From the NCBI RefSeq assembly GCF_000166295.1, contig NC_017506.1:1178001-1242000 (forward strand): a stretch of DNA of 64,000 nt, in the 5' to 3' direction. A program made the position numbers and the translations under genes. The DNA is from Marinobacter adhaerens HP15. Its GTDB lineage: Bacteria; Pseudomonadota; Gammaproteobacteria; Pseudomonadales; Oleiphilaceae. Numbering within the stretch: position 1 is the stretch's first letter; each line of letters begins with the position of its first letter. The notes under the pieces are model-generated. The model was given only the letters and a program-made list of their open reading frames with translations, did not search any database and was not told the origin of the DNA. Positions 50,148-64,000 of this stretch are shown one piece after another.

Positions 50148-51812
50148 TCAATGTTCTGTTAAAAATGGTTCCACGTACGAAAGGTATTCTGATTGTGGCG
50201 AGCGATGTTCTCTCCACATTCCGCCGTGATTTTCCGGCCGAGGGCGAAGCTTCGCGTTTGTTAGTACTAAACGTCGTTTCGCACGAGACACTCCTACAAA
50301 AAAGGCACAGCGATTCTCGTCTTGATTGCCAAAAAAAATCTCATTTTCGATCGCCATCATGATAACCGAGTCAAATTCAAGTCCTTTACTCTTATGTATG
50401 GTCAAGATCCTCACTGACTCGTCGTCTGAAAAACGGTCCAGCGCTTCTTCGAGGGTAGAGGTCGATTGACTCAGCTCAGATATGCGATTTTTTGTATCGG
50501 TAATAACGTCTCTCAGCCTTGCCTTTGACTCATATTCAGGAGATAGCGCTGCAACGGTTTCAATGCCAACGTGTTGAAGAAACAACTTTGCTGGTTCCCA
50601 CCATTCCGTGCTTCGTTGCTCAGCCGTCTGGCCAGCCATGGCTTTCCTTTGCTTTCTTATAAAGCTGTCCAGGGACCGGCTAACTTCAGACTGCACGTCG
50701 TCATCGGCAAAGGGCTGCAGCTGCTTCATTAGTCTTATCCACGCTTTGGGTTCGCGTTTTCCGTAGAGGCAAGAAAGGTAATCGACAATCAAGCGAGCTG
50801 CTGGCTCAACTGTTATATCCTGCATCTCTTGTTCATTTCGAAAGGGTATTCCTCTTGCCGTCAGCGCCTTAATTAAGTCGTGCGCGTATAGATCAAGCTG
50901 CTTGGATACAAGTATCGCGATCTCTGATGGTGCCAACTCCTCGGTTTCAATCCAGCTTTTTATGGTGTCTGCCAAATAGGAGGCTTCATCGCTGCTGTTC
51001 GCAAATTGCGTCGACAGAATCTCTCCAGCGTCTCCCTCAAGTTGTTCATCTGGCATGACAGAATCAGGGTCTATTACCTTAATGATTTCGTTTTGTACCC
51101 TGAGCAGGCCTGGTACAGACCTAAAATTTCGGTAAAGGTTTAGTGGCATCGCGGAGAAGTCTTGAGCAAATGTGAGGAATATTCCCTCTAGCGCACCGGC
51201 CCAGCCCATAATTTTCTGTTTTACATCACCCACAGCGGTAAGACGAACAGGAGTATTGTGAAATGCCAACTTTACTAACTCGTATTGTTGGTGTGTACAA
51301 TCTTGAAACTCATCAAGAAAAACGTCGCTGTAAGTCTGCCTGACAGCATTTCTGGCAATTGATGACGTTTTTAGTATCTGGATTGCTAGGGGCACCAGGT
51401 CAACAAAAGTAATTTGTTTTCTGGGAACCTTCTGGTCTCCGATCGTGAAGCCCACATCCAAAGCATCATTACCCTCTAACACTGGTCGAAATCGATCAAT
51501 GATGCGTTTTGCGAATGCATGGAACGTATAACTGTCGAAACGTGATGCAAGGTCATAACCACAGCGCTTCTTCACGCGTTCTCTCAAGTTTTGACTTGCA
51601 TCGACTTTGAAAGAAATAGCGAGGATACGTTTGGGATAAGTACAAGTGCCAGATCTAAGTAGGAAGTCTGCACGCTGAGCCAGCATCTCTGTTTTACCTG
51701 CCCCAGGGCCAGCAGTTAGGGCTAGAGAGTGGATCTGCTCTGTCGCCGCCTTCTGTGCGTTAGGCTCAAGTGTAAGATTGTCGGCAGGTTTCCACTCCGC
51801 TACGGAGATCAT
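50148..51812 (-). CDS. gajB: UvrD/PcrA-like helicase, Gabija GajB
   Basis: SF1A DNA helicase of 554 residues. Walker A TAGPGAGKTEML at 33-44, motif Ia ISFKVDAS, motif II FLDEFQDC at 165-172, motif III AVGDVKQKIMGWAGA at 193-207, motif IV NLYRNFRS, motif V TIHKSKGLEFDSV around 470-482, motif VI FVGVSRAKRRL near 505. In Gabija systems GajB forms a complex with GajA and is proposed to sense DNA ends made during phage infection. ATG 51812 overlaps the upstream stop (ATGA), so the pair is coupled. Slightly longer than the B. cereus GajB (about 494). Confidence 0.9.
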   Translation of the reverse strand: MISVAEWKPADNLTLEPNAQKAATEQIHSLALTAGPGAGKTEMLAQRADFLLRSGTCTYPKRILAISFKVDASQNLRERVKKRCGYDLASRFDSYTFHAFAKRIIDRFRPVLEGNDALDVGFTIGDQKVPRKQITFVDLVPLAIQILKTSSIARNAVRQTYSDVFLDEFQDCTHQQYELVKLAFHNTPVRLTAVGDVKQKIMGWAGALEGIFLTFAQDFSAMPLNLYRNFRSVPGLLRVQNEIIKVIDPDSVMPDEQLEGDAGEILSTQFANSSDEASYLADTIKSWIETEELAPSEIAILVSKQLDLYAHDLIKALTARGIPFRNEQEMQDITVEPAARLIVDYLSCLYGKREPKAWIRLMKQLQPFADDDVQSEVSRSLDSFIRKQRKAMAGQTAEQRSTEWWEPAKLFLQHVGIETVAALSPEYESKARLRDVITDTKNRISELSQSTSTLEEALDRFSDDESVRILTIHKSKGLEFDSVIMMAIENEIFFGNQDENRCAFFVGVSRAKRRLVLTNAKLRPRPENHGGMWREHRSPQSEYLSYVEPFLTEH

Positions 51813-53728
51813 TCGGGCAACTCCGTTAGCTTTGCAATAACTGTATCGATTAATCGATTGAGTTCTTGGGGCATGTTTTGAGCTAGCTGATTATCATCTA
51901 GGTTTGCCAAAGCCTGTATATGTGCAGCAGGTTTGCTTCCTAATTTGAAGTGCTTGTGATAACTCGTGAAGAGACTCTGTTCATCCTCGCTATATTGAGA
52001 TGCATCGTGATGATTTTTTCCCAGAACGGCTTGCAAGGCTGGCCTGTCTGAGATCTCCCGTTTTACTGAGTATGCTTCCGGGAAGGCAAGGAGCATAGAG
52101 AAATCCAAGTCCAGAGGGTATGAAAAGAAAACACCGCGGCTTTCCAACTCGGTAAAAACATCGCGATTGTTTTCGAACCAATGATGTGTCCTTACTGGCA
52201 AATCGCTATCATTCCATTTTGGGAGATTCCAATTAGGTAACGCCTTGGTTGGTTCGAATTTTTTGAGTTGGTCGTTCACGTACTTGATACGTCCCCATCC
52301 GGCCTGATGTCTCCCTACATCGAGATCAAGAAGCGTGAGGTAGGGGATTTGCAATGCCGATAGCAAGCGCCAAAAGTGATTCACATGCCGACCACCGAGT
52401 GGAGCAATTGAGACGGAGGATTCATCCACTGGTGCTCCTTTCGCTTGAAGAAGGCGAGGTAACACGATTTCCTCACTATCTCCTTCACCAAGAATCACCA
52501 ATCTCGAAAAATAGACTTCAGGAAATGCCTGAACAGCTTCCCTGACAAATTTATGGGCGTCATCGGTCTTAGGTGGTAGTTGGATATGAGTGACCCTTGA
52601 CTGCCGGTTTTCTCCCAATCTCATGTATCTAATATTTTCCGGTGGTACACGTCGAAGCATTGATGGAGCATGGGTAGCAATAAGCGCCTGGCAGTCTTCG
52701 TCTGCGACCATTTCGTTTAGTGCGGTAACAATTCTCCCTAAATAAAGAGGAGAAAGGCTGTTTTCTGGCTCCTCTATTGCAATCAAGGTGAAAACGGGAG
52801 GCTGGAGACGATCCGGATCGAATGATGCGTTTTCCTCGGATAGAGTTTTTCGGCCTATCGCTTGGGAGGAAAATACCAGCGATAAGTACAGCAATGACTT
52901 TTGCCCGTCGCTTAAACGAGAAAAATCAACCAACTCCTCGTCATGTCCCGGAGAGAAAGAAACTGACATGTGTCGCAGCAATGCCTCGATCTCAGACGCT
53001 ACAAAAGTGATTTTCGGGTCGGTGAAGAAATCGCCTTTGTGCAATGTCTCCCAAGAAGCTTGAAGCGCGTCACTGAATGCCTTTACTGATGGGTTGGCTA
53101 TAAGGCTGTCACTGATTTCTGTAGTCAAACCCTTAATGGTCTCTCGCTCTTCTTCCCAGCGAATTGAGCGAAGAATTCTCCCCAAGAGGGCATTGGCGCT
53201 ATAGGAAATATGGTCCGCTGGATCTCGTCGAGCAGGCAGATAGTGAAGCTTTATGTGACGTCGTTCAGAGCGAGGTACCTGCGATACATCTAGTGGATTT
53301 CCCTCGTCATCTATGTCTAGAACATAGACGAGGTTCTCCTCGATTTCTCCGTCCAATCCCATTGTTGCATTGAGTCTAAATCGTACTCGAGGAATACCAT
53401 CAACCTCATCAAGCCGCATGTGCCCAAAATGCGGGGCCACTGTGCTGTTGTCTTCATCCTCGGTCAGTTCGGGAAACGTGAAATCGGCTTCAACCCATAA
53501 CTCGCGTTCCTCAGATTCCGATTCTTCATCAATTGGGACGTGGAAGTCTGAGCGCTGAATACGACGTTGAGCTGGATCGAAAGCGAATAGCCGGCATAGG
53601 GCTTCCAATGCTGCTGTCTTACCCGATCCATTCCGACCAATGAGATATGTGATGTCGTCAAGCAATATCGTGGTTGGAGTTTGGCCAAAAGAACGGAAGT
53701 TCGAAAGGCGCATCGTGTGTAGTTTCAT
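51809..53728 (-). CDS. gajA: OLD-family ATPase-TOPRIM endonuclease, Gabija GajA
   Basis: 639 residues from ATG 53728 (MKLHTMRLSNFRSFG). ABC-type ATPase: Walker A LIGRNGSGKTAALE at 29-42, signature LSDGQKSLL at 272-280, Walker B FTLIAIEEPENSLSP at 313-327, switch His in ATHAPSML at 351-358. TOPRIM nuclease: VILGEGDSEEI at 411-421 and LTLLDLDVG at 464-472, later YPLDLDFSML typical of class 2 OLD nucleases. Class 2 OLD proteins encoded next to a UvrD helicase define Gabija. GajA cuts DNA when cellular nucleotides fall. A longer frame to 53869 lacks a good start signal. A+T-rich relative to the core genome. Confidence 0.9.
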   Translation of the reverse strand: MKLHTMRLSNFRSFGQTPTTILLDDITYLIGRNGSGKTAALEALCRLFAFDPAQRRIQRSDFHVPIDEESESEERELWVEADFTFPELTEDEDNSTVAPHFGHMRLDEVDGIPRVRFRLNATMGLDGEIEENLVYVLDIDDEGNPLDVSQVPRSERRHIKLHYLPARRDPADHISYSANALLGRILRSIRWEEERETIKGLTTEISDSLIANPSVKAFSDALQASWETLHKGDFFTDPKITFVASEIEALLRHMSVSFSPGHDEELVDFSRLSDGQKSLLYLSLVFSSQAIGRKTLSEENASFDPDRLQPPVFTLIAIEEPENSLSPLYLGRIVTALNEMVADEDCQALIATHAPSMLRRVPPENIRYMRLGENRQSRVTHIQLPPKTDDAHKFVREAVQAFPEVYFSRLVILGEGDSEEIVLPRLLQAKGAPVDESSVSIAPLGGRHVNHFWRLLSALQIPYLTLLDLDVGRHQAGWGRIKYVNDQLKKFEPTKALPNWNLPKWNDSDLPVRTHHWFENNRDVFTELESRGVFFSYPLDLDFSMLLAFPEAYSVKREISDRPALQAVLGKNHHDASQYSEDEQSLFTSYHKHFKLGSKPAAHIQALANLDDNQLAQNMPQELNRLIDTVIAKLTELPE

Positions 53729-53930
53729 AATTAGTTCGAGGCCATCCTTGTATCTTTTTATGGATTGCGGCAGCTTCCCAACTACTAACGATTGTGTGCA
53801 GCTAGAACGCCCATGAACTGATCTATCGCAAAGTATGTCAACCATACTCATCTTTCCGATTGACATCATCCCTTGCTAGTTCTTGAAGGCAGTGATCGCG
53901 TAATAAAAAAATCTCAAACCTATATCACCC

Positions 53931-54372: not shown

Positions 54373-55335
54373 ATGGCTCACCTTATTGAGCAAATGTCCT
54401 ACGCAGGACAAACCCCGTGGCATGGCCTGGGGAACGAACTGACTTCAGACCAACCCCTGGACGTCTGGGCAAGGCAAGCCGGTCTGGACTGGCAGATCCA
54501 GGAAAGTCCCGTCCGATATATCGCCAATGCCAGTGGCACTTTGGGAGAGATCCTGTCCTTTCCGGATTCCAAGGTGCTTTATCGCTCAGACACCAAAGCC
54601 CCGCTGTCAGTGGTCGGTAACCGCTTTAAAGTGGTTCAGCCTGAAGAGATCCTGGAGTTTTACCGGGACCTGACCGAGGTATCCGGTTTTGAGCTGGAAA
54701 CCGCCGGTGTCCTGAAAGGCGGCCGAAAAATGTGGGCACTCGCCCGAACCGGTCAATCCGGCATGCTCAGGGGCAACGATCAAACCAATGCCTACGTCCT
54801 GCTGGCAACAGCCTGTGACGGAACCATGGCAACAACCTGCCAGTTCACCAGTATCCGAGTGGTGTGCAACAACACACTGGCGGTTGCATTGAAGAGCTCC
54901 ACTGCTAATGCCGTCAAGGTGAAGCACAACACAGCGTTCGATGCAGACCTGGTGAAGAAGCAACTGGGAATCTCTGTCTCGGCTTGGGATGACTTCATGT
55001 ATAGCCTGAAAACTTTGAGTGAACGGAATGTGAAGACCACCGAAGCCAGGAACTACTTCCTCAAGGTGTTCACCGATGATTCCGGCATTGGTGTAGGCAA
55101 AACTAACGAACGATCGATGGTGAAGGCTCTGGGGCTGTATGAAGGCGAGGGCATGGGTGCCAACCTGGCATCCTCCGAAGGCACGGCCTATGGCCTGCTG
55201 AATGCCGTCACTGAATTCATCGATCACCAACGCCGCGCGAAAACCGTGGACCACCGCCTGGATTCCGCCTGGTTCGGTACCGGTGCTGCCATGAAGAGCC
55301 GTGCATTAGAGCAGGCCATGTCACTTGTGGCTTAA
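54373..55335 (+). CDS. DUF932 (phage/plasmid-like TIGR03299) protein
   Basis: 320 residues: MSYAGQTPWHGLG at the start, LSVVGNRFKVVQPEEILEF, CQFTSIRVVCNNTLAVAL, and FLKVFTDD. This family accompanies recombination genes in phages, plasmids and integrative elements; its molecular role is not established. ATG 54373 with AAGGAG site. An intrinsic terminator directly follows. Confidence 0.9.
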   Translation: MAHLIEQMSYAGQTPWHGLGNELTSDQPLDVWARQAGLDWQIQESPVRYIANASGTLGEILSFPDSKVLYRSDTKAPLSVVGNRFKVVQPEEILEFYRDLTEVSGFELETAGVLKGGRKMWALARTGQSGMLRGNDQTNAYVLLATACDGTMATTCQFTSIRVVCNNTLAVALKSSTANAVKVKHNTAFDADLVKKQLGISVSAWDDFMYSLKTLSERNVKTTEARNYFLKVFTDDSGIGVGKTNERSMVKALGLYEGEGMGANLASSEGTAYGLLNAVTEFIDHQRRAKTVDHRLDSAWFGTGAAMKSRALEQAMSLVA

Positions 55336-55364
55336 GCCACCCCCACAAATTTCAAAACCGTCAT

Positions 55365-55402
55365 AAAGCCCACCGAAGCCTGATGCTCTGGTGGGCTTTT
55401 TT
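55365..55402 (+). terminator. Intrinsic terminator after the DUF932 gene
   Basis: AAAGCCCACC (55365-55374) pairs with GGTGGGCTTT (55390-55399), followed by TTT. It lies between DUF932 and YqaJ, so part of the transcripts would stop here. Confidence 0.85.
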
Positions 55403-55421
55403 ATGTCTGGAGCAAAACATC

Positions 55422-56423
55422 ATGGGCATGAGTGCAAACGCAAATCAGAAATCACGACCGGCATTGCGCCTGGTCTCTACCAAGGGCCTCAGCCGGGATG
55501 AATGGCTGAGGGTCCGCAAGCAGGGCATTGGCAGTAGCGATGCCGCTGCATCTGTCGGCATGAACCCGTATCAATCCCAACTGGAACTCTGGATGGTCAA
55601 AACCGGCAGAGATGCGGGTTTGCCAAAACCGGATTCAGGCGATCCGACTTCACCGGTCTACTGGGGCCATATCCTGGAACCTATTGTGGCAGAGCAGTAC
55701 AGCCAACAAACGGGCAGAAAGGTGCGCCGGGTGAACGCGGTATTGCAACACCCAGATCCGGACAAGCACTGGATGTTGGCCAACCTCGATTATTCGGTGG
55801 TGGCCGATGACGACGTGCAGATTCTGGAATGCAAAACGGCAGGGGAGTTCGGATCACGGCTCTGGAAGGAGGGGGTTCCGGACTACATCCAGTGCCAGGT
55901 GCAGCACCAGTTGGCTGTCACTGGGAAACCGGCAGCGGACGTGTGCGTTCTGTTGTGTGGCGAGGAGTTGAAGATCTACCGCGTTGAACGGAATGAAGAG
56001 CTCATCGAGGCACTGTACGTGCTGGAGCGCCAATTCTGGGACTTCGTGGTAACGGATACCCCGCCACCGGTCGATGGAACCGACTCCGCTGAACGGGCCT
56101 TGCGTCATCTGTATCCAGTGGACAGAGGGGAGACCCTGGACTTCAGCCAAAGCAAGGAATTGTCGGATGCGTTTGACGAGCTGCTGGCCATTCGCTCGGA
56201 ACTGGAAAGCCTCAAATCCACCGAATCCCACCTGAAACAGCTAATCGAGATCCAGATGGGCGACGCCTCAAAAGCAACCTTCCCCAGTGGCAGCGTCAGC
56301 TGGAAACGGAGCAAGGATTCCGTTGGGCTCAACGTGAAGCGACTGCTCAAGGATCAGCCAGAGCTTCTGGATCAATACCCACTCCCCAAGCCGGGCAGTC
56401 GGCGGTTTCTCATTCAAGCATAG
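55422..56423 (+). CDS. YqaJ-type viral recombinase (lambda-exonuclease-like)
   Basis: 333 residues. Nuclease core in order: GIGSSDAAASVGMNPYQS, GHILEPIVAEQYSQQTG, MLANLDYSVVADD with the metal Asp, ILECKTAG with the ExK pair, then YIQCQVQHQLAVTG. A PD-(D/E)XK exonuclease of the YqaJ family that resects DNA ends for single-strand annealing. A C-terminal helical part (SELESLKSTESHLKQLIEIQ) follows. Start ATG 55422 with GGAG upstream; ATG 55428 possible; the frame extends back through the terminator, which argues against an earlier start. Confidence 0.9.
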   Translation: MGMSANANQKSRPALRLVSTKGLSRDEWLRVRKQGIGSSDAAASVGMNPYQSQLELWMVKTGRDAGLPKPDSGDPTSPVYWGHILEPIVAEQYSQQTGRKVRRVNAVLQHPDPDKHWMLANLDYSVVADDDVQILECKTAGEFGSRLWKEGVPDYIQCQVQHQLAVTGKPAADVCVLLCGEELKIYRVERNEELIEALYVLERQFWDFVVTDTPPPVDGTDSAERALRHLYPVDRGETLDFSQSKELSDAFDELLAIRSELESLKSTESHLKQLIEIQMGDASKATFPSGSVSWKRSKDSVGLNVKRLLKDQPELLDQYPLPKPGSRRFLIQA

Positions 56424-57601: not shown

Positions 57602-60600
57602 CTATGGCGTAGGTGGAATCCGCTTCTGCTCGTTTGCCGAGATGCTATGGAGTGGGAGCAGATCCATCACATCACAGAACAACGCCCTATTTTGCCAGTC
57701 TCCTCTATCACCAATGACATAGAAACGGCGCTTGGCACGCGTTGCTGCCACATTTAAAAGATTCGGTTCCGAAACGACCCAGTTGCGAGCTCCCGAGTTC
57801 TCGGTATTCCCGCCTAACACCATTATTATAATTGCTGCTTCCTTGCCCTGCATGGTGTGGATCGTGCCGGAAACCACTTTGTCAGGGAGTATGCGATTTA
57901 GGTTTTCCCGGACGGCTTTGAAGGGAGTGATGACAGAAATGTCTTTAGCCTCAACGCCGTCTCCTTCCAACAGCTTAAGTAGCCTCTGGAGTGCTTGTCC
58001 TTCGGCTGGTACCCAGTTTCCTTCTGACGTGCCAATGGCTTGAATCCATCCCGTCGGAAGACTGGCTGGCGTCTCCTTGTCGGGTTTAGGAGGAATCGTT
58101 CCAAACACCATCGCCCCGTCATAGGCAACGCGATTTGCCAGCTCGTGCATAGGCTTGTCACAGCGCCGATGTACTACGAGAGGCATTCCCACCCAGGTCT
58201 TGTCATCCGCTGGTCCAGCCATGCGTCCCAATGGAGTTGCTCCGTCGGCTAATGTCTGCGCAGATTGTCGATTGGGAAGCCAATGGGCATTGATCTGGTA
58301 ACGCGTTCTCATGTGTTCAAGTACAGCATCGGAGACGGTGACGATGGGCTTGAGCTGCAGAGGGTCCCCAACCATCAAAGCTCGTTGGGTACGCCATAAC
58401 GCGCCGACCGCCGCTTGAGGTGGAGCTTGACCTGCCTCATCTACGAACAACCAGCCGATCTCGCTGGCCCCTAAAGAACCGAATGAGCGTGAAAAAGATG
58501 CGAATGTGCTACTCAGAACTGGCACCACCATAAACAGTGTTGTCCAGGCGGAACGGATAGCTTCACGTGATAAGCCTCGATAGCGGCTGCCGGTCAAAAT
58601 TCCATTGATGAGGAAAAGGTTGGATCTTATACGATATGCTTCCAATTCAAAGAACACACGATGAAGCTTGAGAGCCTGAATGAAGACCCGCGCGCGAGAT
58701 TGGCGCCAGCCCTCAATTTGCCAAGGTTCTGCGAGCTCGATGGGCTCGCCGCGACCGATGGAACCCTCTTTCAGCCAGGCCAATAGGTGATTGGCTCGAT
58801 ACGTGTTTGCTAAGTCTATGGCGTCTTGTTCCTGTGCTTGGCCTTGATCCTTTAGTCGCTGAAGTGAGCGCTGTAAATCACCTACCTGCGTTTCCAAACT
58901 CTTTCGTGAAACATCCAATCGCATAGTTTGGCGTGCTATCCGGTTGAATTCAGACTTTGCCAAATCGTGTTGGCTTTTCAGTAGTTTACCCGTAGTCTCC
59001 CAGTCTCGTTGTGCTCTCCAAAGGCTGAACAACTTAACCCAGAAGCTTGGCCTTCTGGCTTGATGTTTGCCAAGCGCATCCAAGTATTTTTTGAGCTTTA
59101 TACTGGCTGGACGGCTTTCTTTGGTATCCAAGTCAGCGAGGTCGTTCAGTGTATCGCCCAACTTACTTTCGAGGTCAGTTAGTGTTTTCGATTTTTCCCT
59201 GATCTTCTCACGGGTTTGGCATAGGTGCTGAATCAACTCACGGATGCGCGAGGCAGCAGCATAGGTCTTGCGCACGTCTTCTTTGGCTGTTTCAAAGTCC
59301 TGGACGGCCTCTTTCCACAATGCCTGGCGCTCTGCGGGTGAGCGAGTTTTGTTGATCTTAGCGTTCGCATTGAGCCATTCGAGCAGGCCCTCTGCTTCCT
59401 TTTCCTTGTCTCGCGGCGTATCAGCGTGATCCTTAAGTGAGTCGCGTCCTTCTTCCAAAGAGCGTGTGGAAGATAAGCTCCTTGCGACGTCGCGTTCAGT
59501 AACAGGGCCGGCTTTATCATCCACTTCTGGGGCCACCTGCTCTGCGCTGCCAAATGGGCGCTGACCATAGAAGTAGCGCTCCACGAATTTGGTTCGCCGC
59601 GACTTGCTGCCCAGGGCTCCGGAGATAAGTCCCCATGCTGGCTGTCCACTGACCAGTTCGCCTAATTCGGAAAAATACTCAGCCTCGGGTAACCAGCTCT
59701 CGTCGATCTTGTCCCGCTGTGGTAATTCAAGCGTGATGTTTTCCACCGCGCCGTTATTGGATGAAGCCACTACGATCTCGAAGCCATAAAGTTTCGAGTC
59801 AAGTTTGAAGCAAGCCTGCTTTTTGCCTCCATCATTAGCCTCCTCGCGTCCGTCACGAACAAACCCATCTGAAGCGCGCCCGAGTCGAGCGAGTACATCG
59901 GCACGACTGGTCACGATGGACGCTATCAAATCGCGCAGTAGAGTCGTTTTTCCTGTACCCGGGGGGCCATTGATGCCCAACAGCCCGTCGTCGCTGTTGA
60001 GCTTGGCGAGGGTCGTGTTGACAGCGAGTTGTTGAGAATGGACGAGACCACGATGTTGTTCTGATGGCCAACAGCTCAGTGGATAACTGTCTGGCATCAG
60101 ACTTTTAATGAGTTGCAACGAGGAATGTTTATCATCGACGTGCAGGCGGAGTCGCTCATTGTACTGACATAGGTACTCCTCCAGAGGTCTGCTTTTTTCT
60201 CCTTTGCTGATGCTGTCAGCTATGTTGGAAAGGTCTTCTAGCATGAAGCTATTGAGTGGGTCGTCTTCTCGCTCTGGCTTTTGAGGTTTGATCGGACGTG
60301 ATCGAAACCGAAATACCTTTTTGTCTATATCGCCAAAAAAATTCGATATGCCAATGTAGTCGAGAATCCAGATGGTCAATTCGCGCAGCGCGGAGCCAGT
60401 TACCTCGCCTCCAAGCAAGGCTTTTGCCTGATCGCCAACAGCTCTTTGATCGTCCTCGAATCCAGTGCTCCAATCCTTCCCCTTCAAAACTCGTCCTAAA
60501 AACCATGCTTCGCTCGAGAGGACGAAACTGTCCTCTACCAAGTGACCAGCCATGTTGAATTTTGCTGCGAAGAGTGCCGATTCTCGATGTTGGGGCTCTT

Positions 60601-60877
60601 TATATCCCTGATCAGCGCCAAAGACCTTTTCAAGCTGTTCAGCAACAAGGCGACTGTCATAGACATGTGCGAAAAGTGTGTGACTCCAAACGCGCTGCTT
60701 GGGCAACTCCTGCTTCGCAGCAATACTTTCTTCTGACCAAGGGGGTATGACATCCGCGATGGGAGTGTTGTGAATAAACGCTCCGTAGCTGTTGGTGCGC
60801 TTTTCCACCTTTGGGGCCGACTGAGGTTGCAACAACTCCACAGCATGCCAATAACGGACAATATTCTCCTGCCCCAT
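57602..60877 (-). CDS. Large SF1B (Upf1/DNA2-like) helicase with coiled-coil insertion
   Basis: 1091 residues. N-terminal domain of about 280 residues with no recognised family. Helicase core: Walker A NGPPGTGKTTLL at 303-314, motif II VDEAGQAPP at 812-820, motif III GDPLQLKP at 837-844, motif V GTIHTMQGKEA at 1004-1014, motif VI NVAATRAKRRF at 1042-1052. Between motifs I and II lies a roughly 450-residue insertion rich in charged helices (about 480-700), probably an antiparallel coiled coil. Single gene on the minus strand beside other defence-type genes; stand-alone SF1 helicases of this size occur in defence islands, but I cannot name a system. Start ATG 60877 (MGQENIVRYW) has GAAAAATTTTT upstream and a weak ribosome site. 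Confidence 0.85.
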   Translation of the reverse strand: MGQENIVRYWHAVELLQPQSAPKVEKRTNSYGAFIHNTPIADVIPPWSEESIAAKQELPKQRVWSHTLFAHVYDSRLVAEQLEKVFGADQGYKEPQHRESALFAAKFNMAGHLVEDSFVLSSEAWFLGRVLKGKDWSTGFEDDQRAVGDQAKALLGGEVTGSALRELTIWILDYIGISNFFGDIDKKVFRFRSRPIKPQKPEREDDPLNSFMLEDLSNIADSISKGEKSRPLEEYLCQYNERLRLHVDDKHSSLQLIKSLMPDSYPLSCWPSEQHRGLVHSQQLAVNTTLAKLNSDDGLLGINGPPGTGKTTLLRDLIASIVTSRADVLARLGRASDGFVRDGREEANDGGKKQACFKLDSKLYGFEIVVASSNNGAVENITLELPQRDKIDESWLPEAEYFSELGELVSGQPAWGLISGALGSKSRRTKFVERYFYGQRPFGSAEQVAPEVDDKAGPVTERDVARSLSSTRSLEEGRDSLKDHADTPRDKEKEAEGLLEWLNANAKINKTRSPAERQALWKEAVQDFETAKEDVRKTYAAASRIRELIQHLCQTREKIREKSKTLTDLESKLGDTLNDLADLDTKESRPASIKLKKYLDALGKHQARRPSFWVKLFSLWRAQRDWETTGKLLKSQHDLAKSEFNRIARQTMRLDVSRKSLETQVGDLQRSLQRLKDQGQAQEQDAIDLANTYRANHLLAWLKEGSIGRGEPIELAEPWQIEGWRQSRARVFIQALKLHRVFFELEAYRIRSNLFLINGILTGSRYRGLSREAIRSAWTTLFMVVPVLSSTFASFSRSFGSLGASEIGWLFVDEAGQAPPQAAVGALWRTQRALMVGDPLQLKPIVTVSDAVLEHMRTRYQINAHWLPNRQSAQTLADGATPLGRMAGPADDKTWVGMPLVVHRRCDKPMHELANRVAYDGAMVFGTIPPKPDKETPASLPTGWIQAIGTSEGNWVPAEGQALQRLLKLLEGDGVEAKDISVITPFKAVRENLNRILPDKVVSGTIHTMQGKEAAIIIMVLGGNTENSGARNWVVSEPNLLNVAATRAKRRFYVIGDRGDWQNRALFCDVMDLLPLHSISANEQKRIPPTP

Positions 60878-61392: not shown

Positions 61393-61935
61393 TTAAGGTC
61401 GGTTAGTTTTGGCAAGCTTTGTAAGGTCACTAGGCCTCTTTCGCCGGCCGGGAACCTTTACAGCCAAAACCATCCGTGACTGTGATTCGCCGGAGCGGTA
61501 GACGCGGCGCATCTCAAATAAGCTCGTTAAATGCGGCGTACCTTCGCGATTGGGTGTCGCCAGGTCGAGTACCAGCAGCACGCCCAATCGAATACTAACA
61601 TTTTGGTAGTCTGTCGTTTGTGCTGCATACGATTTGAATAACGCATCGAAGGAGCAATCTTTTTCCTCGCGCTTCACCTCGACTACGAGACGTTCAGGGC
61701 CAGATTGCAAGCGTATGTCGGCTCGGCCACTCGCAATGTTTGTGGGTTCAAGATCACTCCCTGCGGCATACGTTGCCACCCACCGAAAAAAGTCCTGCTG
61801 TAGTTCGTCCTCGTGAGGCAGTGAACCGTCTTCGCGTTCGAACAGGTAGGCGCCAGTTGGGTCATCGCCCTTAGTCAATTCCAGGCGATTAAAATAAAAC
61901 GGACCATCCAGAGAAGCACGGTATCGAAGAGACAT
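61393..61935 (-). CDS. Small PD-(D/E)XK nuclease-like protein
   Basis: 180 residues. Core pattern: HEDELQQDFFRWV (E44), GRADIRLQ (D73), LVVEVKREEK (E86, K88), then a Q-motif YAAQTTDYQN (Q106) and LGVLLVLDL, the arrangement of PD-(D/E)XK enzymes such as VRR-Nuc or restriction nucleases. Third gene of an operon after a helical protein and an SMC-like ATPase; it overlaps the previous gene by 61 bases. Likely the effector nuclease of the unit. The frame is open upstream of ATG 61935 inside the preceding gene, so a fused ancestor or a frameshift is possible. Confidence 0.7.
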   Translation of the reverse strand: MSLRYRASLDGPFYFNRLELTKGDDPTGAYLFEREDGSLPHEDELQQDFFRWVATYAAGSDLEPTNIASGRADIRLQSGPERLVVEVKREEKDCSFDALFKSYAAQTTDYQNVSIRLGVLLVLDLATPNREGTPHLTSLFEMRRVYRSGESQSRMVLAVKVPGRRKRPSDLTKLAKTNRP

Positions 61936-63371
61936 GTGCCGTTCGCATTCGTGTTGTAGTCGATGTGCCCCCGGGCCTCCTGGTAGCAGCGTTCGATGAC
62001 CTCGATTTCGGAACCCGTCAGGTTGGCAAGCTGCAATGACATAGCATTCTCGACTACACCAGAAAGGATTTTCTTCTTTTCTTCTGGAATGTTGGATCTT
62101 GCAATGATGGCGGCGAGCGATGTCCGTTCGCTCGCCGCCTCAGGAGGGTTATTCGGGCTGCCTGACTGTTCAATGAAATTATCAATCTGTGCAATTAAAT
62201 CCTGAGCTTCCGTGGCCCATTCGTGGGTCGTGTTGTGTTGGAGCCACATTCGCACTTGATGCACTTGCCCAGCTTGCCTGGCGACGCTTGTGCGTATTCG
62301 AGGTCTGACCATCGATTCGACACCACCATGCTGATCTCGACGCAAGATCGATCGACCTGCGTTATACACAGATAGGAGGCCCTCCTCGATGACAGTTGCC
62401 GGCTCCCACCAACTCGGCTCGTCAAGCGACACTGCCAGCCCTGCAATAGCTCTGGCTAGGACGCTCCAACAAGCCGCCTCGGTCTGTCTTGATCCCAACC
62501 AGGGAGGCCCGGAGCCTCCTGACCAAGCGTGCAGCTCGAACGCGTGTCGCTGAACACAGGCGCTCGCGGAGGCGATCGAAGCGCTTGCGGCTCCGTTGTG
62601 AAAGCTTAGGAGAAGATCAAGCCCGTCGAGGTATAAGCTAGTTTCCGGACTGCGCTCGGATGCTCTGTTAGACTCATCAAGCCAGTCTCTGGCCATACGG
62701 AAGGCGGTGGTTGCCGAGTTGCGGTCCTCTCTATCCATGGCTTCAGAAAGAGCTGCCATCCCCAACTCGAAAGTGGCCTCAGGTCGCACCGCGTCGAGTT
62801 GAGCGAGTTTGTGCAGAACTTCAACCAGTTCCTTGTCACGCCAATGGGAATAAGCGACGCCGACAATCTTTGCCGCCCGTCGAAGGAACTCTGTGTCGTC
62901 GTTTGGTGCGAGACCCAGGAAGAAGTCCAATAAGCGAAGTTGCCAGCGCCTGTTGTCACTGGCCCAGCGAAACGCGCCATCTAGCGCTGCGCTGCGGGCT
63001 AACCCAGATAGTGAGTGGTCTCCTGTTGCGGCCTTTGATAGAAAGAGCATAAAGCAACACTCATCTCCTTCATCCGGCAGCGGCCGATGTTGACCCAGGA
63101 TATCGACCGCTTCAAGGAGAACGAAGTCTGTTGTCGCGACCTCCAATAGATCGTGCAGGACACCCTTGTGCAGTTCTCGATCACTTGCCTGAGCACGGCC
63201 CCATCCCAATACAAGTGGGTGAAACAGCTCGGGCATTATGGGTGTAGTGCCGAGCGACCGCGCTGCCGGCGCGAGTTGCTCTATCCCACCAAGATCTTCC
63301 AACTGCCAATCTCGCCCATCTTTCAAGATTTCTATGAGCTTTGCTTCGATCGGATGCATGTCGTCTACCAT
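61875..63371 (-). CDS. Helical-repeat protein of unknown function, 498 aa
   Basis: Not recognised. 498 residues, predominantly alpha-helical with TPR- or HEAT-like spacing (FHPLVLGWGRAQASDRE, LLEAVDILGQHRPLP, KELVEVLHKLAQLDAV, WWEPATVIEEGLLSVY). No catalytic motif found. Its ATG overlaps the ATPase stop (ATGGTAG), showing translational coupling, and its last 61 bases overlap the nuclease gene. The very end (FDTVLLWMVRFILIAWN) is hydrophobic and is encoded in the overlap; it may be a real tail or the result of a frameshift. Probably a scaffold or sensor between ATPase and nuclease. Confidence 0.7.
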   Translation of the reverse strand: MVDDMHPIEAKLIEILKDGRDWQLEDLGGIEQLAPAARSLGTTPIMPELFHPLVLGWGRAQASDRELHKGVLHDLLEVATTDFVLLEAVDILGQHRPLPDEGDECCFMLFLSKAATGDHSLSGLARSAALDGAFRWASDNRRWQLRLLDFFLGLAPNDDTEFLRRAAKIVGVAYSHWRDKELVEVLHKLAQLDAVRPEATFELGMAALSEAMDREDRNSATTAFRMARDWLDESNRASERSPETSLYLDGLDLLLSFHNGAASASIASASACVQRHAFELHAWSGGSGPPWLGSRQTEAACWSVLARAIAGLAVSLDEPSWWEPATVIEEGLLSVYNAGRSILRRDQHGGVESMVRPRIRTSVARQAGQVHQVRMWLQHNTTHEWATEAQDLIAQIDNFIEQSGSPNNPPEAASERTSLAAIIARSNIPEEKKKILSGVVENAMSLQLANLTGSEIEVIERCYQEARGHIDYNTNANGTCLFDTVLLWMVRFILIAWN

Positions 63372-64000
63372 AGGAAGGCGTTCCCGGCGACTTCACGGCG
63401 ATGCGCCTTCGGTATGTGGTCGGTAATCGCTTTGGATGAGATGCCAGCAACAAACACCTGAAAATGCGGCAACTTGGTGAAAACTGACTGAAGTCCAGCA
63501 ACAAGGTGATCCACGTCGACAGGGGACACCTCCTGAGCAGCAGGCGAATCGATCATCAACAATCCAGGATGGCGGCCGATTCCCCGCTCCTCCGCAATTT
63601 CGATCATCGCAAGAACGGTCGCAACTTTAAGGCGTAGCTTTTCGCCTTCTGTTACCTTGCTATAGCTTGTGGGCGCTCCGCCTTTGATCAACGAGAGTGA
63701 CGCATTTCCCTTTAGAGACGCTTCCGACAGGTTCTTCATTCCGAAAGCATTGGCGTACTCTACCAAGCGCTCAGATACGTCTTCGAGCAATCCATCCCGT
63801 CTCGCTTTGACGCGAGACTCCGTTTCCTTCACGACAGCAGATAGAATTTTTAACTCGTCGTTGCGGTCATTGGTTTGTGTATTCGGGCTTATCGAGGCTT
63901 CGGCCTCCTCAAGCCGACCTTCAAGGACAGCCACGGCTCTTGCAGCGTCCTGCCGGCGCGTGGCGGAGCCTAGCTCTTTAGAAGCAGACTCAAGACGATC
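63365..64000 (-). CDS. SMC/RecN-like ATPase, C-terminal part only (continues beyond the window)
   Basis: Frame is open from 64000 down to the stop at 63365 (211 codons seen). First part is charged coiled coil (DRLESASKELGSA, LEGRLEEAEAS), then KVTEGEKLRLKVATVLAMIE, equivalent to the ABC signature and following helix, GLLMIDSP as Walker B with D-loop, and LPHFQVFVAGISS in the switch-like region. Such heads with coiled coils belong to the SMC/Rad50/RecN class. The Walker A half lies outside the window. First gene of the three-gene unit seen here; earlier genes may exist upstream. Confidence 0.75.
   Translation of the reverse strand, partial: DRLESASKELGSATRRQDAARAVAVLEGRLEEAEASISPNTQTNDRNDELKILSAVVKETESRVKARRDGLLEDVSERLVEYANAFGMKNLSEASLKGNASLSLIKGGAPTSYSKVTEGEKLRLKVATVLAMIEIAEERGIGRHPGLLMIDSPAAQEVSPVDVDHLVAGLQSVFTKLPHFQVFVAGISSKAITDHIPKAHRREVAGNAFLW

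Follow-up and report, generated by a model that had tools for sequence, protein, structure and literature searches.

A split lmuA gene and a candidate interchangeable accessory gene in a probable Lamassu operon of Marinobacter adhaerens HP15

Lamassu systems, of which DdmABC of Vibrio cholerae is the reviewed example, consist of an LmuB of about 650 amino acids (aa) with a zinc hook, a small LmuC, and a nuclease, LmuA, according to PMC10586767. Recognition of abnormal DNA, for example ends or hairpins, is ascribed to LmuB with LmuC, and so is the activation of LmuA (PMC10586767 and PMC12904381). Accessory modules are also described: in PMC12799240, nuclease-protease pairs, in which an MBL-fold nuclease accompanies a protease carried as a fusion with a defence enzyme, have been taken up by several defence systems, Lamassu among them. 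Here, we analyzed the right-hand end of a 64,000-nucleotide stretch of Marinobacter adhaerens HP15 (C1:1178001-1242000, hereafter the window; the genome is 4.65 Mb in three contigs), extending the reading rightward beyond the window edge. The locus is very probably the 3′ end of a Lamassu operon in which lmuA is split in the assembly, together with a candidate interchangeable accessory gene, here called gene X. The Lamassu branch itself is already known, and the system is an ordinary one.

Three open reading frames (ORFs) lie at the end of the window, all on the reverse strand. The 3′ piece of lmuA, encoding a PD-(D/E)XK nuclease domain, is a 180-aa ORF in its own frame (61393..61935); the 5′ piece, encoding a HEAT-like helical scaffold, is a 498-aa ORF with an early end (61875..63371); and the last part of lmuB, for an SMC/Rad50-like ATPase, runs from 63365 to 64000 and is open at the window edge. 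The two lmuA pieces overlap by 61 bases and the 498-aa ORF overlaps lmuB by 7 bases, exactly as the first-pass annotation of the window had it. That annotation had proposed a new three-gene system of ATPase, helical-repeat helper, and nuclease, and had called for the missing half of the ATPase to be sought. This half is present beyond the window: whole lmuB encodes 657 aa (L002:6366-8339, reverse strand; far end at C1:1243338). It is preceded on the same strand by lmuC (209 aa, L002:8353-8982) and gene X (362 aa, L002:8979-10067, C1:1243978-1245066), both also outside the window. X lies upstream of lmuC and shares four bases with it (ATGA), so that the transcription order, from the right, is X-lmuC-lmuB-lmuA. 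The reading frames of lmuB, lmuC, and X are unbroken throughout.

PADLOC models account for each part of the operon apart from X. LmuB matches PDLC03864 over positions 1 to 657 of 657 (E = 5.3e-220), LmuC matches PDLC03872 (E = 1.2e-78), and the two remaining ORFs match adjoining portions of one LmuA model, PDLC03853: the 498-aa ORF at positions 1 to 494 of 655 (E = 9.8e-136) and the 180-aa ORF at positions 493 to 654 of 655 (E = 2.8e-62). LmuB carries a Walker A-like GKS, two CxxC motifs resembling a zinc hook (CPRC...CSVC), and a signature-like VTEGEK, which together with the PADLOC match bear out the SMC-like ATPase of the first-pass annotation; its Walker B motif reads MIDSP, and the usual glutamate is absent. 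The component proteins of Lamassu are all present, namely, an SMC-like ATPase (LmuB), an effector with an enzymatic domain (LmuA, its gene split here), and a small LmuC, which some Lamassu systems lack. The usual, nondefining placement of the effector domain at the LmuA N terminus is not seen; the nuclease occupies residues ∼521 to 641 of 659. We regard the C-terminal nuclease as a trait of this branch because the PADLOC LmuA model for the branch spans the same layout.

The idea of a new three-gene system, only distantly Lamassu-like, now appears extremely improbable. The operon proteins have no informative match in Pfam or NCBIfam; neither LmuB (E up to 0.01) nor an LmuA relative (E up to 1) matches the sequences of solved structures; and the gene order and nuclease position are unlike the reviewed Lamassu layout, all of which would suit a new system. 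Against this, dedicated PADLOC Lamassu models fit along the length of the proteins, LmuC is present, and the three supposed genes are lmuB and one split lmuA, the gene count being refuted by a single-protein LmuA relative (P0001, described below). We therefore rejected a new system on the PADLOC matches and the single-protein LmuA relatives: the profile test that had been set beforehand as its refutation places the parts in Lamassu, and the resemblance to Lamassu noted in the proposal is substantiated by the PADLOC models. Two other named systems were also rejected. None of the five operon proteins matches a model of Septu (an ATPase, PtuA, paired with the HNH nuclease PtuB) at E values up to 0.1, and the nuclease residues are of the PD-(D/E)XK and not the HNH type. 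For Wadjet (JetABCD, with a MukB-like JetC), the sole JetC match is at chance level (E = 0.069) and falls on an LmuA piece.

The 498-aa "helper" and the 180-aa "nuclease" are halves of a single LmuA, and the actual helper is LmuC, encoded beyond the window. The 659-aa relative P0001 is identical to residues 1 to 493 of the 498-aa ORF followed by residues 15 to 180 of the 180-aa ORF, the latter span being the LmuA sequence within that ORF; the identity switches frame at position 61893, within a T-rich stretch. A profile search of the genome returned two abutting LmuA matches, at profile positions 1 to 495 and 493 to 659, while the same search gave one unbroken match in another genome. Because P0001 and the profile matches join both pieces, we treat them as one gene. 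Searching proteins with the 498-aa ORF as the query gave 193 relatives; in most of the relatives examined, LmuA is a single protein of ∼630 to 660 aa. Among the 120 relatives listed, 110 are at least 640 aa long, and the ten shorter ones start or end elsewhere, none at the split site. D552, E565, K567, E521, and Q585 (P0001 numbering) are invariant in all 110 of the long proteins, upholding the earlier call of PD-(D/E)XK nuclease residues; the first three correspond to D73, E86, and K88 of the 180-aa ORF, and E521 is the helix residue. The helical-repeat scaffold that had been read from the 498-aa ORF is likewise borne out by the AlphaFold2 model of an intact relative, P0002, which forms a helical superhelix. 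Two of the 120 listed relatives carry the label PF28130.

The split near 61893 is either an effector broken in this strain or an assembly error. That it is real and functional, with the halves made separately or joined by programmed frameshifting to give a two-protein effector, is improbable. Both ORFs are long, they overlap and retain the nuclease residues, and an ATG of its own opens the 180-aa ORF at 61935, as such an effector would need; yet P0001, identical to both pieces, is unbroken, the great majority of listed relatives are single long proteins, and one lmuA is found in each of the four closest loci and in each of the three distant loci with a scanned LmuA. A conserved split or programmed frameshift was rejected, since 0 of the 10 short proteins among the listed relatives end at the split site. 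A caution follows for annotation: a change of frame can disguise one defence gene as a new two-gene module.

The operon order is kept well beyond this genome. Searching with X alone retrieved four loci with the order X-LmuC-LmuB-LmuA at 72 to 91% identity (L004 to L007, from Halomonas sp. A40-4 [L004], a Thiobacillus metagenome-assembled genome [MAG], a Dechloromonas MAG, and Pseudomonas sp. EpS/L25 [L007]). In L006, X contains an in-frame stop and ambiguous residues; the Lamassu order is intact, so this locus was counted. LmuC-LmuB-LmuA is also kept in five distant plasmid loci (L035 to L039, from Methylobacterium, Rhizobium, Sphingomonas, Roseovarius, and Streptomyces), whose LmuA proteins are 26 to 31% identical, and the order thus recurs in nine fetched loci overall. 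PADLOC supports LmuA, LmuB, and LmuC in three of the distant loci and LmuC in the Roseovarius locus, where it was the only protein submitted and where LmuB is in two pieces; for the Methylobacterium locus, tblastn was the sole check.

Plasmids yielded 32 records with LmuA relatives, 31 at less than 60% identity and one a 9%-coverage fragment at 72%, and five of these were fetched; X was found in two plasmid records, neither among the 32. Viral contigs and phage records each gave one partial match to X, and no LmuA relative was found in viral contigs. X occurs in 3 of 398 genomes of the phylum sample, including this one, and one of the others matched in residues 189 to 346 alone. LmuA occurs in 2 of 390 genomes of the order sample, again including this one; the second has X before LmuA with L007-like spacing and was not counted as independent, as it may be the same strain. 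Within the family, LmuB is present in 2 of 163 genomes, this one and a marginal case (E = 9e-4), a rarity that fits horizontal arrival. This genome has one copy of X.

X has 252 relatives, none with a Pfam domain among the 120 listed, and for X itself neither Pfam nor NCBIfam offers a match at E up to 1, nor does PADLOC have a family. Its profile found no match among the sequences of solved structures at E up to 10. Modeling suggests an OB fold joined to a degenerate PD-(D/E)XK-like domain. D249 and K269 are present in 140 of 140 sequences, and the E/Q site is leucine in 139 of 140, with glutamine in L029 alone. X does not keep the catalytic D...(E/Q)xK pattern of PD-(D/E)XK nucleases, leucine standing at the E/Q place. 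The methyltransferase label that X relatives bear in several database records was rejected, there being no family match at E up to 1. The matches that Foldseek gave for X were for the most part aminoacyl-tRNA synthetases and small proteins of the OB-fold type, with a query template modeling score of at most 0.22 among the 50 matches listed. The open-access literature searched, which was covered in part, names no gene like X common to Lamassu, Gabija, and Qat; within the limits of that literature, X is undescribed. A 287-aa gene lies beyond X in the opposite direction and has no family in Pfam, NCBIfam, or PADLOC.

Twenty X loci were found in genome contigs; exclusion of two with a partial or broken X (L022 and L023) left 18, in which chosen neighbors rather than all ORFs were scanned. 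A recognized defence gene adjoins X in the same gene run in nine of these (L004 to L011 and L020). The partners are Lamassu in four (L004 to L007), PDC-M68/ABC-3C genes in three (L008, L009, and L011), Gabija in L010, with the order GajA-GajB-X, and, in L020, a pair made up of a DrmMI-like methylase and an LmuB-like ATPase, which X directly follows. In L008 and L011, the choice of partner start codon leaves the exact overlap with X uncertain, and in L009 the gap exceeds 100 bases. Arrangements elsewhere are looser: X follows QatA, QatB, QatC, QatD, and a 175-aa gene in L013; CBASS genes (cyclase, E1-E2, and E2) on the same strand, a 0.7-kb gap, and one gene in L014; L015 has a methylase-like gene further away. 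Directly before X in both L013 (9428-9955) and L014 (9424-9873), both from Pseudomonas, is a gene whose product, at most 175 aa long, has no family; the two are related to each other. Defence-like genes on the opposite strand include GajA in L018, a PDC-S37-like gene in L017, and a weak restriction-enzyme-like match in L016. An OB match on the GajA ORF of L010 gave the look of a fusion; the N-terminal 141 residues of this ORF resemble the end of a DnaE2 polymerase, so the match was not counted and probably reflects what is left of an interrupted gene.

Two further comparisons link X to Lamassu. For 14 of the 120 listed LmuA clusters, the longest contig has exactly the same size as in one of the 120 listed X clusters, whereas 1,000 perturbed sets gave 0.43 on average and 3 at most; X identity is at least 75% in 12 of these 14 LmuA-X cluster pairs. 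When 21 X proteins were placed in a tree, the five linked to Lamassu, whose hosts are four named families plus this genome, formed one group (support 81/93, one change, seen in 78% of bootstrap trees), which is what joint travel of X and its partner would predict; only 6 of the 18 inner branches of this tree are well supported, and L014 had been entered as "other" prior to recognition of its CBASS genes.

The operon has the parts, the motifs, and the kept order of a Lamassu, and its action can be proposed by analogy. LmuB, Rad50-like and with a zinc hook, would together with LmuC bind abnormal or invading DNA, such as ends and hairpins. The DNA-bound LmuB and LmuC would then activate LmuA, and the C-terminal PD-(D/E)XK nuclease of activated LmuA, carried on the HEAT-like scaffold, would cut DNA; sensing, activation, and cleavage are in this sense presumed for the Lamassu described here. 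The proposal for X is weaker than that for the core: an OB-type DNA binder that, as an interchangeable partner, might feed or license substrates and so assist a sensor in recognizing or processing DNA. We suggest a DNA-handling partner because an ATPase of the SMC/ABC or KAP type is found among the partners in Lamassu, PDC-M68, Gabija, Qat, and L020. Our tentative view is that X is an interchangeable immunity component of several unrelated systems, mostly based on such ATPases and perhaps including CBASS, for whose sensor or effector it would deliver or license DNA substrates.

Several findings weigh against this view. The CBASS of L014 is not of the ATPase type, which counts against a strict ATPase rule for X. 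No same-strand defence partner was recognized among the genes scanned in 6 of the 18 loci (L012, L016 to L019, and L021). Finally, X itself and four divergent X sequences, used as queries at E up to 0.01, found no X within 6 kb on each side of LmuA in the five distant Lamassu loci, from which we take LmuC-LmuB-LmuA to be the core and X an addition in one sub-branch. The last two of these points would be natural if X were a passenger that shares the mobility of defence islands, perhaps a stand-alone nuclease or regulator without a role in Lamassu, as would the position of X in L013 to L015, where it is not directly beside a defence gene. Such a passenger is possible, if rather doubtful, because X overlaps or nearly touches a same-strand partner here (by the 4-base overlap), in L004, L005, and L007, in the Gabija locus, and in L020, and probably does so in two of the three PDC-M68 loci; the clustering of the five Lamassu-linked X proteins in the tree also speaks against it. 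If X is instead a plug-in shared among systems, then one DNA-handling accessory serves systems whose sensors and effectors differ, Lamassu, Gabija, and Qat loci with X are incompletely listed by current tools, and X offers a compact handle on what the sensors recognize.

The surroundings look like a defence island; the first-pass annotation had taken a nearby Gabija and another candidate as support for a defence role. GajA (51809-53869) and GajB (50148-51812), both recognized by PADLOC, do lie in the window; their best models are those of the X-linked Gabija of L010, but no X adjoins them. Between Gabija and a 1,091-aa helicase-like protein resembling Mokosh MkoC (57602-60877; PADLOC, E = 5e-63) are DUF932 and YqaJ-type genes (54373-56423), which are typical of mobile elements. 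Beyond the window edge, L002:11195-15002 encodes a 916-aa protein matched by PADLOC as "Ankyrin" and a 334-aa prokaryotic viperin, followed at L002:15301-18908 by genes for a 742-aa protein and a 458-aa possible hydrolase, on one strand and 2 bases apart. The 742-aa protein has a marginal CHAT match slightly under the Pfam cutoff, and the two genes are perhaps another defence pair. Further right than these defence genes, a tRNA-Arg gene (L003:239-315) is a possible attachment site of the island.

Among the closest known systems are the AspBHI and MspJI modification-dependent restriction enzymes. The nuclease-protease pairs resemble X in being one accessory module in unrelated antiviral systems; they use an MBL-fold nuclease, whereas X is modeled as OB plus PD-(D/E)XK-like (PMC12799240). 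The PDC-M68/ABC-3C operons (DUF2326 and CTD10) share with this locus an SMC-like ATPase gene after X in the same run but have different ATPase and partner families, and their LmuA and LmuB matches are weak. With the reviewed Lamassu, as given in PMC10586767, the locus shares an SMC/Rad50-like LmuB with a zinc hook, a small LmuC, a nuclease effector, and a Walker B motif without the catalytic glutamate, which is replaced by serine here and by glutamine in the Lamassu reported there. It differs from that N-terminal-effector layout in that the nuclease is C-terminal in LmuA, after a helical scaffold of ∼500 residues, and in that lmuA is last in order. The closest likeness is to the Lamassu branch PDLC03853/PDLC03864/PDLC03872, with three proteins matched along their length in the order LmuC-LmuB-LmuA; what distinguishes this locus is the split lmuA and the extra gene X before lmuC, the latter shared with the four close loci.
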